DNA from: Pseudosulfitobacter koreensis
GTDB taxonomy: Bacteria > Pseudomonadota > Alphaproteobacteria > Rhodobacterales > Rhodobacteraceae
Length of the DNA: 64,000 nucleotides
NCBI RefSeq assembly: GCF_024733015.1
Contig: NZ_JANKJG010000001.1
Span: 1-64,000 of the forward strand
Reading direction: 5' to 3'
Under the pieces are notes generated by a model. That model saw nothing but the letters and a program-made list of their open reading frames with translations, searched no databases and had not been told where the DNA came from. Position numbers and translations under genes: made by a program. Below, one piece after another: positions 42,014-45,729 of the stretch (its first letter is position 1; every line of letters starts with the position of its first letter).

Positions 42014-42919
42014 CTAAAGTTTCGAGCCTGCGGGCAGTGCCGTGCCGCGCAGGAACTCCGTGGCATCCTGCGCTCCGCGCCCGGCCTTTTGCAAGCGTGT
42101 CAGTTGCACCGCACCGCTTGCGCAAGCAACGGTCAGCGCGTCGTCCAGCACCACGCCCGCCTGCCCCTGCCCTTCGGCAAGTCGGCTACCCAGCACCTTG
42201 ATCCGCACGCCACCGTGTTCAAACCACGCCCCCGGAAACGGCGAAAGCCCGCGAATTTGACGATCCACCTCGACCGCATCGCGCGACCAGTCCAGCGCCG
42301 CCTCTGCCTTGTCGATCTTGTGGGCATAGGTCACGCCCACATCGGGCTGCGCCTGCGGCGTCAGCGCATCCAGCTGCGCCAGCGCGCTTACGATCGCGTC
42401 CGCCCCCAGCGTGCTCAGCCTGTCGTGCAACTCTGCCGTGGTTTCATCCGCCCCAATCGGCGTCTCAACCCGCAACAGCACCGGCCCGGTGTCCAGCCCC
42501 GCCTCCATCTGCATGATGCACACGCCCGTCTGCGCATCGCCCGCCATGATCGCCCGGTGGATCGGCGCAGCCCCGCGCCAACGCGGCAACAGGCTCGCGT
42601 GGATGTTCAGACAGCCACGATCCGGCGCGTCCAGAATAGCCTGCGGCAGGATCAACCCATATGCCACGACCACTGCAACCTCCGCGTTCAACGCGGCAAA
42701 CTCCGCCTGCGCCTCGGGTGATTTCAGCGAGACCGGGTGCCGCACCTCAAGCCCCAGCGCCTCGGCGCGGGCATGGACTGGCGTGGGCCGGTCCTTCTTG
42801 CCACGGCCCGCCGGGCGCGGCGGCTGGCAATAGACCGCGGCGATGTCGTGGCCTGCCTGTACCAGCGCGTCCAGCACCGGCACCGAGAAATCGGGCGTAC
42901 CCATGAAGACGATGCGCAT
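42014..42919 (-). CDS. fmt: Methionyl-tRNA formyltransferase
   Basis: Formylates initiator Met-tRNA using 10-formyltetrahydrofolate; 301 residues. The N-terminal domain opens with [15 protein letters not shown] and contains the catalytic [20 protein letters not shown] segment (about 107-126). The C-terminal OB-like domain is present. It lies directly after the three deformylase genes, joining addition and removal of the formyl group in one operon. Confidence 0.95.
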
Positions 42920-42946: not shown

Positions 42947-43441
42947 CTAGCGGGCCTTGCGCGCCTTGCGGATCAGCATGTCCCGCTTCACGCGGCCCAG
43001 ATTGTCGAAATACATCCGCCCCGCCAGATGGTCGATCTGGTGCTGAACCGACCGCGCCTCCAGCCCTTCAAAATCGCGCCGGTCGATCATTCCATCCGCG
43101 TTCAGGAACCGCACCGTGACCTTCTTGGGGCGGGTGATCTCGGCATGGACACCGGGCAGGTTGGGCGAGGCTTCGGTGCCCGCCTCTGTCTCGTCCGACG
43201 CCTGGATAACCGAAGGGTTCGCCAGCAGGATCCGGCGGCTGCGGTCGGACGTGGCATCGACCACGGCCACCTGCAACATCACCCCGATCTGCGGTGCAGC
43301 CAGCCCGACGCCGGGCATCGCGTCCATCGTTTCGACCATATCGGCCCAAAGCATCCGGATTTCATCCGTGATCGCCGCGACGGGCGCGCAGGCTGTGCGC
43401 AGGCGCTTGTCCGGCCAGGGCACGAACGCCCGAACGGTCAC
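42947..43441 (-). CDS. Peptide deformylase-like protein with altered active site
   Basis: A 164-residue deformylase paralogue, third in the tandem array. Motif 1 is normal (GVGLAAPQ, residues 44-51), but motif 2, normally EGCLS, reads EASPN, so the metal-binding Cys is replaced by Ser92. In motif 3 the HEIDH sequence is HQIDH (134-138), so the catalytic Glu is Gln135. These changes should remove or strongly alter hydrolysis. The frame is otherwise intact and overlaps the preceding def by 4 bp, so it is kept and translated; a binding or regulatory role is possible. Confidence 0.85.
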   Translation of the reverse strand: MTVRAFVPWPDKRLRTACAPVAAITDEIRMLWADMVETMDAMPGVGLAAPQIGVMLQVAVVDATSDRSRRILLANPSVIQASDETEAGTEASPNLPGVHAEITRPKKVTVRFLNADGMIDRRDFEGLEARSVQHQIDHLAGRMYFDNLGRVKRDMLIRKARKAR

Positions 43442-43941
43442 GCAGCGCCGCCTTCGTAGTCGGCCAGCAGCGTCGCGCGCGCCTCCGCGTCGATCCGGTC
43501 AAATGTCAGAACACCGTCCAGATGATCGCTTTCATGCTGCGCGCAAACTGCATCAAACCCCGTCATTTCGCGGCTCACCCGTGCCCCGTCCATCGCCGTA
43601 TATGACAACCGCACAGCCGAAGGCCGTGACACATCCGCGGCTACGCCGGGGATCGACAGGCACGCTTCGGAGTTGACCGCGAGGGTCTCGTCCAGCACCT
43701 CGATCTGCGGATCGATACACACCAGCGGATCGGACGCACCCTCTTTCCAGCCGGTGTCCATGACGAATATCCGCTGCATCACGCCGATCTGCGGCCCCGC
43801 CAGCCCACGCCCCTTCGCGGCATACATCGTCTCCAGCATGTCGGCAGCCAGGATCTGCACCTCGGCCGTCACCTCGCCCACCGCGGCACAGGGCTGCGTC
43901 AGACGCGCATCGGGCCACTTCAGGATCGGACGTGTGCTCAT
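43438..43941 (-). CDS. def: Peptide deformylase, second copy
   Basis: Metal-dependent deformylase of 167 residues, removing formyl from nascent proteins. The metal ligands are in place: Cys94 in EACLS, and His136/His140 with catalytic Glu137 in HESDH. Motif 1 is slightly atypical (GRGLAGPQ, residues 44-51, with Gly in place of Ala49). It overlaps both neighbouring def genes by 4 bp. Substrate preference may differ from the canonical copy. Confidence 0.9.
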   Translation of the reverse strand: MSTRPILKWPDARLTQPCAAVGEVTAEVQILAADMLETMYAAKGRGLAGPQIGVMQRIFVMDTGWKEGASDPLVCIDPQIEVLDETLAVNSEACLSIPGVAADVSRPSAVRLSYTAMDGARVSREMTGFDAVCAQHESDHLDGVLTFDRIDAEARATLLADYEGGAA

Positions 43942-44462
43942 GACTTCTCCCGCGCCAGCTCGCGTTTCAGCTTGGTCATCTTGCGGGTGATCATCTGACG
44001 CCTGAGCGGCTTGAGATAGTCGATGAACAGCTTGCCATCCAGATGGTCGATCTCGTGCTGCACGCAAGTCGCCCAGAGGCCACCCATCTCTTCGTTGTGC
44101 TCCTTACCGTCGCGGTCCGTCCAGCGCACCTGCACCTCGGCGGGGCGGGTCACGTCGGCAAAATGCTCGGGGATCGACAGGCAGCCCTCTTCAAAGACGT
44201 TGGTTTCCTCCGAAGATGCGACGATCACAGGGTTGAACATGATCAGCGGGCGCGGCGTCTCGTTTTCATCCTTGACGCAATCCAGCACGATCAGCCGTTC
44301 CAGCACGCCGACCTGCGGGGCCGCCAGCCCGACGCCCGGTGCGTCGTACATCGTGGCCAACATGTCATCGCCCAAGCGGCGCAGTTCGTCCGTCATATCG
44401 GTGACGGGCGCGCAGTGCTTCTTGAGCCGTGGATCGGGGTGCAAGAGAATGGGGCGTTTCAT
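43938..44462 (-). CDS. def: Peptide deformylase, canonical copy
   Basis: First gene of the array, 174 residues, with all three family motifs in their standard form: GVGLAAPQ (43-50), EGCLS with Cys94, and HEIDH (136-140). It also has the basic C-terminal helix (MTKLKRELAREKS) seen in ribosome-binding deformylases. It is the likely housekeeping enzyme. The operon promoter should lie in the 97 bp shared with the divergent aminotransferase. Confidence 0.95.
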   Translation of the reverse strand: MKRPILLHPDPRLKKHCAPVTDMTDELRRLGDDMLATMYDAPGVGLAAPQVGVLERLIVLDCVKDENETPRPLIMFNPVIVASSEETNVFEEGCLSIPEHFADVTRPAEVQVRWTDRDGKEHNEEMGGLWATCVQHEIDHLDGKLFIDYLKPLRRQMITRKMTKLKRELAREKS

Positions 44463-44559
44463 GGCAGGTCATTTATGCCAACACGGGCTGCGGTGCAACG
44501 GCCCCTTGCGCTTGGCGGCTGGGGCGTTAGCAATACGGGCACAATCACAGGAGAGACCC

Positions 44560-45729
44560 ATGAGCTTTGACGAGATCATCGACCGCCGCGGCACCCATTG
44601 CGCAAAATGGGACATGATGGAAAAGCTCTACGGCGTTCCCACCGACGACGGGCTGGCGATGTGGGTCGCGGACATGGATTTCAAACCACCCCAATGCGTG
44701 ATTGATGCGCTTCAGGCGCGGGTCGATCACGGCATGTTCGGCTACTTCGGCGACGACAGCAAATACCGCGCCGCGATCCAGTGGTGGATGAAGGAACGTC
44801 ATGACTGGCAAATCGACCCTGCGTGGATCTTCACCACGCACGGGTTGGTCAACGGCACAGCGATGTGCATCGACGCCTTCACCAAACCAGGCGACGGGGT
44901 TGTGCTGTTCACACCCGTCTACCACGCCTTTGCCCGCGTGATCGAAGCCGCCGACCGCCGCGTGGTCGAATGCCCCCTTGCCGTGAACGATGGCCGTCAC
45001 GAGATGGACTTCGACGCGTGGGATGCGCAGATGGACGGCAGCGAAACGCTGCTGGTCCTGTGCAGCCCGCACAACCCCGGTGGCCGCGTCTGGACCCGCA
45101 CCGAGTTGGAGGGCGTCGCAGAGTTCGCCAAGCGGCACGACCTGATCCTGGTCTCGGACGAGATCCACCACGATCTGGTGATGCCGGGTCATACCCACAT
45201 CCCGATGGCCAAGATCGACGGCATCGCCGACCGTCTGGTGATGATGTCCGCCACGACCAAGACGTTTTCGATCGCAGGTGCGCATCTGGGCAACGTGATC
45301 ATCGCGGACGAGACCCTGCGCAAGACCTTCGAGAAACGCATGAACGCGCTGGGGCTGTCGCCAAACGCCTTTGGCCTGTTCATGGCAACGGCTGCCTATT
45401 CCCCCGAAGGTGCGGCCTGGGTCGATGACCTGATGGCCTACCTGGCCGAAAACGCGCGGATCTTCGACGCGGGGGTAAACGCCATTCCCGGTCTGAAATC
45501 CATGCCGCTGGAAGCCACCTACCTCAGCTGGGTTGATTTCTCCGGCACCGGCATGTCGCGCGAGGAGTTCACCCGCCGCGTTCAGGACGACGCCCACATT
45601 GCGGTGAACTACGGCCCGACCTTCGGCACCGGCGGCGAAAGCTATCTGCGGTTCAACATCGCAACACAGCGCAGCCGGGTGGAAGAGGCCGTAACGCGCC
45701 TGAAAGCCGCCTTCGCCGACTTGCAGTAG
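44560..45729 (+). CDS. MalY/PatB-family PLP-dependent aminotransferase or C-S lyase
   Basis: A fold-type I pyridoxal-phosphate enzyme of 389 residues. The PLP lysine is Lys234 in SATTKTFSIAG, with the cofactor-binding SDEIHHDL and CSPHNPGGRVW segments before it. The MalY/PatB branch usually shows cystathionine beta-lyase or cysteine-S-conjugate beta-lyase activity, releasing ammonia and pyruvate. In marine alphaproteobacteria a role in organosulfur metabolism is plausible but not shown. The ATG follows AGGAGAG; the gene is monocistronic. Confidence 0.88.
   Translation: MSFDEIIDRRGTHCAKWDMMEKLYGVPTDDGLAMWVADMDFKPPQCVIDALQARVDHGMFGYFGDDSKYRAAIQWWMKERHDWQIDPAWIFTTHGLVNGTAMCIDAFTKPGDGVVLFTPVYHAFARVIEAADRRVVECPLAVNDGRHEMDFDAWDAQMDGSETLLVLCSPHNPGGRVWTRTELEGVAEFAKRHDLILVSDEIHHDLVMPGHTHIPMAKIDGIADRLVMMSATTKTFSIAGAHLGNVIIADETLRKTFEKRMNALGLSPNAFGLFMATAAYSPEGAAWVDDLMAYLAENARIFDAGVNAIPGLKSMPLEATYLSWVDFSGTGMSREEFTRRVQDDAHIAVNYGPTFGTGGESYLRFNIATQRSRVEEAVTRLKAAFADLQ

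Follow-up and report, generated by a model that had tools for sequence, protein, structure and literature searches.

Organization of the def-fmt locus

The window analyzed in this study, a stretch of 64,000 nucleotides from contig NZ_JANKJG010000001.1 of Pseudosulfitobacter koreensis, carries three tandem peptide deformylase (PDF) genes on its minus strand. The first gene, PDF1 (43938..44462), encodes a canonical peptide deformylase with the motifs GVGLAAPQ, EGCLS, and QHEIDH and a long basic C-terminal tail. PDF2 (43438..43941) encodes an accessory deformylase that has intact ligands (EACLS and HESDH), carries Arg45 in motif I (GRGLAGPQ), and has lost the basic tail. PDF3 (42947..43441), which begins with a GTG start, encodes a dismantled paralogue with the motifs GVGLAAPQ, EASPNLP, and QHQIDH. 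PDF1 and PDF2 overlap by the 4 bp ATGA (43938-43941, minus strand), and PDF2 and PDF3 by the 4 bp GTGA (43438-43441, minus strand). The methionyl-tRNA formyltransferase gene fmt (42014..42919, minus strand; PF00551 and PF02911) lies 27 bp downstream of PDF3. A preliminary description of this DNA had reported three def genes with 4-bp overlaps, the first canonical, the second with GRGLAGPQ and all metal ligands, and the third without the metal-binding Cys (Ser92) and the catalytic Glu (Gln135); our reading reproduced the coordinates, the motifs, and the residue numbering.

The PF01327 scores of PDF1, PDF2, and PDF3 were 181.9, 155.5, and 138.7 bits, respectively (Pfam cut-off 22.8). No further PF01327 match was found in the assembly (89.94% complete). 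A short gap (44463-44559) separates PDF1 from a divergent class I/II aminotransferase gene (44560-45729), and a promoter scan of this gap upstream of PDF1 revealed no sigma-70-like promoter.

The same arrangement recurred among relatives. At the sampled loci, a spacing of -4 was found at 73 of 122 PDF1-PDF2 junctions, 99 of 120 PDF2-PDF3 junctions, and 46 of 80 PDF1-PDF3 junctions. The fmt gene was present in 79 of 80 named loci, at most 109 bp from PDF3 in 75, and PDF1 was also found in 199 of the 201 sampled clusters holding PDF3. A def-fmt operon was also read in the E. coli genome (NC_000913.3). That tandem def copies are already known, as the preliminary description had stated, is borne out by a 2025 survey, in which 98.1% of Rhodobacterales reference species have clustered PDFs, with three together in 62.5% of these genomes, and the reason for the clusters is called "elusive" (PMC12690207). 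The PDF3 signature was not found in the article text consulted or in a wider literature search that covered mostly papers outside subscription journals.

Altered catalytic residues of PDF3

Alignment with E. coli Def (NC_000913.3) revealed that the metal-ligand Cys is replaced in PDF3 by Ser92 and the next Leu by Pro93 (codons at 43163..43168, minus strand), and that the catalytic Glu of motif III is replaced by Gln135 (codon at 43037..43039, minus strand), with both motif III His and Gln51 of motif I retained. The Leu-to-Pro93 change, which adjoins the lost ligand, is additional to the two substitutions in the preliminary description. The backbone NH of Leu91 in E. coli Def presumably helps stabilize the reaction, and Pro has no backbone NH of this kind. 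PDF3 keeps motif I (G-phi-G-phi-A-A-x-Q) as GVGLAAPQ; the motif II consensus EGC-x-S, which includes the metal-binding Cys, and the motif III consensus QHE-x-DH, which includes the catalytic Glu, are absent, the corresponding segments being EASPN and QHQIDH. Across PDF3 relatives, Gly44, Gly46, and Gln51 of motif I are invariant and its remaining positions vary. PDF3 further differs from PDF1 in an invariant Ser131, the corresponding PDF1 residue being the invariant Cys133. At position 94, two residues past the lost ligand, Cys replaces Asn in 21 of 199 PDF3 proteins.

Conservation and distribution of PDF3 in the Rhodobacteraceae

Gene calls yielded 209 PDF3, 134 PDF2, and 235 PDF1 genes, duplicates across collections included. 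These corresponded to 199, 123, and 224 different proteins with a recognizable start, respectively, two start-less PDF3 calls being excluded. Ser92, Pro93, and Gln135 were each present in 199/199 PDF3 proteins; because the classes were set by motif and PDF3 was assigned by Gln at the Glu position, the invariance of Gln135 is partly definitional, whereas that of Ser92 and Pro93 is free of this effect. Ser92 was encoded by AGY codons in 149 and by TCN codons in 50 of these proteins. No gene with one signature change but without the other was found among the listed loci read. Conservation of Ser92 and Gln135 across Rhodobacteraceae homologues, which the preliminary description had named as a point to check, was thus observed, and the scattering between intact and broken motifs that would have spoken against it did not occur. 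The signature E[AG]SPN with QHQIDH was also present in 18/18 later-fetched loci, three of which (G120, G023, and G046) belong to already-counted genomes.

Twenty-one of the 164 columns were invariant among the 199 PDF3 proteins, comprising 11 of the 22 motif columns and 10 of the remaining 142 (Fisher p = 3e-6). Because the invariant columns concentrate in the three catalytic motifs, the old pocket is better preserved than any other part of PDF3. Besides the signature, both His (His134 and His138), Gln51, Glu90, Arg104, and Asp137 were invariant. Chance was rejected as the source of the signature: the probability that the three named columns all fall among the 21/164 invariant ones is 0.0018, a rough value that ignores relatedness. 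A sequencing artefact was ruled out by the 199/199 signature together with the low dN/dS.

Of the 149 Rhodobacteraceae genomes sampled (P. koreensis included), 120 gave a strong PDF3 match, and the gene read in each of these had SP in motif II and HQxDH in motif III. The other 29 genomes comprised 4 without any PDF match (76 to 91% complete), 2 with PDF3 fragments at contig edges (G098 and G147), and 23 that had PDF1 and no PDF3. The fmt gene was found in 22 of these 23 genomes, and in 19 it followed the last def gene within 146 bp; because fmt sits so close, PDF3 is truly absent there. PDF3 is thus dispensable in the 23 genomes, which have PDF1, mostly with a nearby fmt. In a draw of 41 Rhodobacterales genomes (completeness 99 to 100% in 40), the QHQ pattern was matched in 39 (the draw overlaps the others, and the matches were not all read as genes), and the two misses (G170 and G076) nonetheless carry PDF3. 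When PDF3 was used to scan named genomes, the best 80 of 111 relatives were kept; by title these were Sulfitobacter, Tateyamaria, Roseobacter, other Rhodobacteraceae, and MAGs named no lower than a higher rank.

The family did not appear to cross lineages. With the A1 profile, four Rhodobacteraceae PDF3 proteins scored 264.7 to 306 bits in 289 genomes of the class, whereas other families reached at best 174.0. The HQxDH DNA pattern occurred in 8/385 class and 27/398 phylum genomes (overlapping draws), 4 and 2 of which, respectively, lie outside the Rhodobacteraceae, and none of these six loci (L114, L115, L120, L121, L291, and L292) had a PDF-profile match. A viral scan with this pattern matched one pattern stretch and no relative.

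The eight catalytic-motif columns of PDF1 were each conserved in 224/224 proteins, and Arg45, the second position of motif I, was present in 123/123 different PDF2 proteins. The residue at the corresponding position of a plant PDF is described as rearranging with the S1' pocket (PMC3101196). PDF2 may be an active deformylase with a changed substrate choice that works away from the ribosome. Within the stretch read, 64 of 120 genomes with PDF3 also showed PDF2, versus 2 of 23 without PDF3. The preliminary description had also suggested that the altered copy may regulate the other two; because 56/120 PDF3 genomes lacked PDF2 there, PDF2 is unlikely to be its sole target. Motifs were broken in two PDF2 genes, L033 (974-1501, HExDH absent) and L278 (1919-2452, QHKLDH), and with this sporadic breakage PDF2 is being lost in places. 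An internal TAG was observed in the PDF2 match of L136/L148 (G136), whose genome yielded no PDF3.

Purifying selection on PDF3

At dS 1-1.5, the median dN/dS (NG86) was 0.196 for PDF1, 0.253 for PDF3, and 0.383 for PDF2, and the order was the same in the other two dS ranges; these are simple pairwise Nei-Gojobori estimates with no branch model. In the first 1500 pairs from the 118 loci with all three genes, the median dN was 0.206, 0.274, and 0.466 for PDF1, PDF3, and PDF2, respectively, and the dN of PDF3 was lower than that of PDF2 in 95% of pairs. The constraint on PDF3 thus lies between that on PDF1 and that on the intact accessory copy PDF2, and its dN/dS is closer to the PDF1 value. In the comparison of P. 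koreensis with L034, the dN/dS was 0.082 for PDF3, 0.094 for PDF1, and 0.119 for PDF2; with L035 and L036, the values were 0.140 and 0.134 for PDF3, 0.065 and 0.048 for PDF1, and 0.165 and 0.139 for PDF2.

The fixed signature and the low dN/dS agree with the earlier suggestion that the degenerate copy is maintained, and relaxed selection was not observed. PDF3 is almost certainly something other than an ordinary deformylase, kept by selection; at the level of sequence, both its pseudoenzyme state and the selection acting on it are well supported.

Predicted fold and C-terminal helix of PDF3

The AlphaFold2 model of PDF3, built from 48 sequences, had a pLDDT of 96.0 and a pTM of 0.91. A Foldseek search with this model gave a TM score of 0.94 to 5j46 and 1xen, and E. 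coli PDFs mostly scored 0.93 to 0.94. By fold and homology, PDF3 is therefore a member of PF01327, its 138.7 bits lying far above the cut-off and its model having the PDF fold. The C-terminal alpha-helix by which type 1B PDFs are recognized is also present in the model, at residues 150-163 (42953..42994, minus strand), where the predicted helix coincides with the basic tail.

The median tail charge was +7 for both PDF1 (224 tails) and PDF3 (201 tails), and -1 for PDF2 (105 tails). The net charge of the PDF3 tail ranged from +5 to +8 in 201/201 tails, and its median length was 16 residues, compared with 21 in PDF1. PDF3 thus resembles E. coli Def (type 1B; 1xen and 5j46) in its fold, motif I, the His pair of motif III, the basic C-terminal helix, and the operon with fmt; unlike a canonical type 1B PDF, it has Ser for the ligand Cys, Pro for Leu, Gln for Glu, and a shorter tail. 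E. coli PDF is described as binding L22 through the C-terminal helix and as a competitor of methionine aminopeptidase (MAP) (PMC8712518). Because PDF3, unlike PDF2, has kept a basic helix of this kind, we consider it rather likely that PDF3 still docks on the ribosome, judging from the tail charge and the predicted helix.

Proposed role of PDF3

The formylation and deformylation of the initiator methionine are usually viewed as an automatic cycle. We propose, as a tentative model, that PDF3 is a selected pseudoenzyme that docks on the ribosome and binds nascent N-termini without hydrolyzing them. At the base of the Rhodobacteraceae or earlier, a deformylase copy would have arisen by duplication, and hydrolysis would then have been lost through the fixed set of Cys-to-Ser, Leu-to-Pro, and Glu-to-Gln changes, with the fold, the remaining pocket, and the basic helix kept. 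The helix would dock near the tunnel exit, like that of E. coli PDF, and the pocket would hold the formyl-Met (or Met) end of the nascent chain uncut. Its occupancy might then pace PDF1, methionine aminopeptidase, or both, or shield some N-termini, and the amounts of PDF1, PDF3, and Fmt would be held in proportion by translational coupling. The lineage-wide fixation, the purifying selection, the predicted fold, and the operon with fmt are the parts of this model that the data support. For the binding of N-terminal (formyl-)Met without hydrolysis taken by itself, which the preliminary description had raised as an attractive idea, we regard the case as evenly balanced; the idea fits the invariance of the remaining pocket. 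If the model is true, the tunnel exit would be a place where deformylation in the Rhodobacteraceae is controlled or read out. A lineage-wide pseudo-deformylase also bears on the def clusters of the Rhodobacterales, which the 2025 survey leaves unexplained (PMC12690207).

The main role of PDF3 might instead be to join PDF1 (or Fmt) as a subunit or to modulate it allosterically, much as other catalytically dead paralogues activate or stabilize an active enzyme; the pocket of PDF3 itself may then be empty. Activating dead paralogues are known in other systems (PMC5201418), and the tight operon with PDF1 and fmt, the many -4 overlaps, and the near-constant presence of PDF1 beside PDF3 would suit such a partnership. 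However, PDFs are described as monomeric (PMC3344269), and a pure scaffold would not explain why conservation in the protein is highest in the old pocket; we therefore regard this explanation as unlikely.

Both His, Ser92, and Gln135 might equally well be invariant because of new chemistry or a retained metal. PDF3 could accordingly be a catalyst of a different reaction, with Ser92, His134, Gln135, Asp137, His138, Gln51, and Glu90 acting on N-termini or on a small metabolite, and all of these residues are invariant in the 199 proteins, as those of an active site would be. Pro93, however, takes away the backbone NH at the formyl site, and a binding role accounts for the same pattern; we know of no enzyme that uses a Pro-altered site of this kind on the PDF fold, and we consider new chemistry doubtful.

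PDF3 might also retain a weak or conditional deformylase activity, perhaps using another metal under stress. Lamberioux and colleagues suggest such conditional activity for type 3 PDFs and argue that the loss of motifs is no proof of inactivity (PMC12690207), and PDF3 retains both His and the pocket. Nevertheless, the metal ligand, the general base, and the neighboring Leu are replaced jointly in every PDF3 read, and PDF1 sits beside it, so residual deformylase activity also seems improbable.

The basic tail found on all PDF3 proteins could alternatively serve the ribosome itself, in assembly or as a place-holder on uL22, leaving nascent chains untouched; this is considerably less probable, because it leaves the invariant pocket with its fixed Ser, Pro, and Gln unexplained. 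That PDF3 is a decaying duplicate, as its absence from 23/149 sampled genomes might suggest, is contradicted by the fixed signature and the low dN/dS, and with no internal stops among the PDF3 matches listed, we consider decay extremely improbable.

Dismantled deformylases outside the Rhodobacteraceae

Inactive accessory PDFs of type 3 are described in Staphylococcus aureus and Streptococcus pneumoniae (PMC12690207). Similar to these, PDF3 is an accessory homologue with substituted motifs in a genome that also has an active PDF (PMC12690207). According to the published description, however, motifs I and II are changed in type 3, whereas in PDF3 motifs II and III are changed and motif I is kept; unlike type 3 PDFs, PDF3 also lies within the def-fmt operon and has become fixed throughout a bacterial family.

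We surveyed 13 other alphaproteobacterial genomes chosen for having two or three PDF matches. Of the 36 matches, 30 were read, and three of these were dismantled PDFs. One of the three then served as the query against 289 genomes of the class; with motifs read in the best 30 loci, the number of dismantled PDFs outside the Rhodobacteraceae rose to at least 11. Ten of them (L318, L321, L324-L330, and L334), here called the HEIDQ type, combine a motif I ending in His with EGS[VIL]SM and HE[IV]DQ. Like PDF3, the HEIDQ type has Ser for the motif II Cys and keeps the basic tail; unlike PDF3, it keeps the Glu, and its second His is changed to Gln and the Gln of motif I to His. The remaining protein, L319 (G189), represents a third dismantled type (GIGIGANM, EASLS, and HEMDY) with the basic tail retained. 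The tails of all 11 dismantled PDFs were charged +5 to +8, whereas 12 of 13 intact accessory copies outside the family, seven of them of the HECDH type, had tails of -2 to -5, the exception being L320 (+7); one accessory copy in two pieces (L308) was left out of this count. The basic tail thus persists in the dismantled copies, whereas most of the intact accessory ones have lost it.

PDF3 formed a single clade in the phylogenetic trees, with a support of 1.0 in FastTree (40/40 sampled) and of 100/99 in the careful tree. In the latter, the HEIDQ type formed a separate clade (100/100), and L319 was placed beside other sequences. AU tests did not reject joining PDF3 with the HEIDQ type (p = 0.224), with L319 (p = 0.227), or with PDF1 (p = 0.463), and the careful tree gave no firm placement of PDF3 beside PDF1. 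A first FastTree analysis contained a branch (0.896) with every Rhodobacteraceae PDF on the same side; this grouping disappeared with more sequences, and the careful tree neither restores nor excludes it.

The differing residue sets, together with the tree, favor a repeated origin of dismantled PDFs without proving it. A faint hint of kinship, against separate origins, is that the best NCBIfam match of PDF3, though below the cut-off, is NF009484, the model to which the one HEIDQ-type protein tested (L321) belongs. It is conceivable, although on the whole unlikely, that the Alphaproteobacteria have made ribosome-tethered non-deformylases more than once (PDF3, HEIDQ, and HEMDY), each with Cys changed to Ser and with a basic tail; these would constitute an unrecognized class of N-terminus readers or new-chemistry enzymes hidden under the name "peptide deformylase." PDF3 itself scored 135.4 bits on NF009484, below the cut-off of 190, and is not a member of this equivalog, which is named "peptide deformylase." The HEIDQ-type protein L321 scored 250.6 on the same model, and database names, that of NF009484 included, thus extend to proteins short of the full catalytic residue set.
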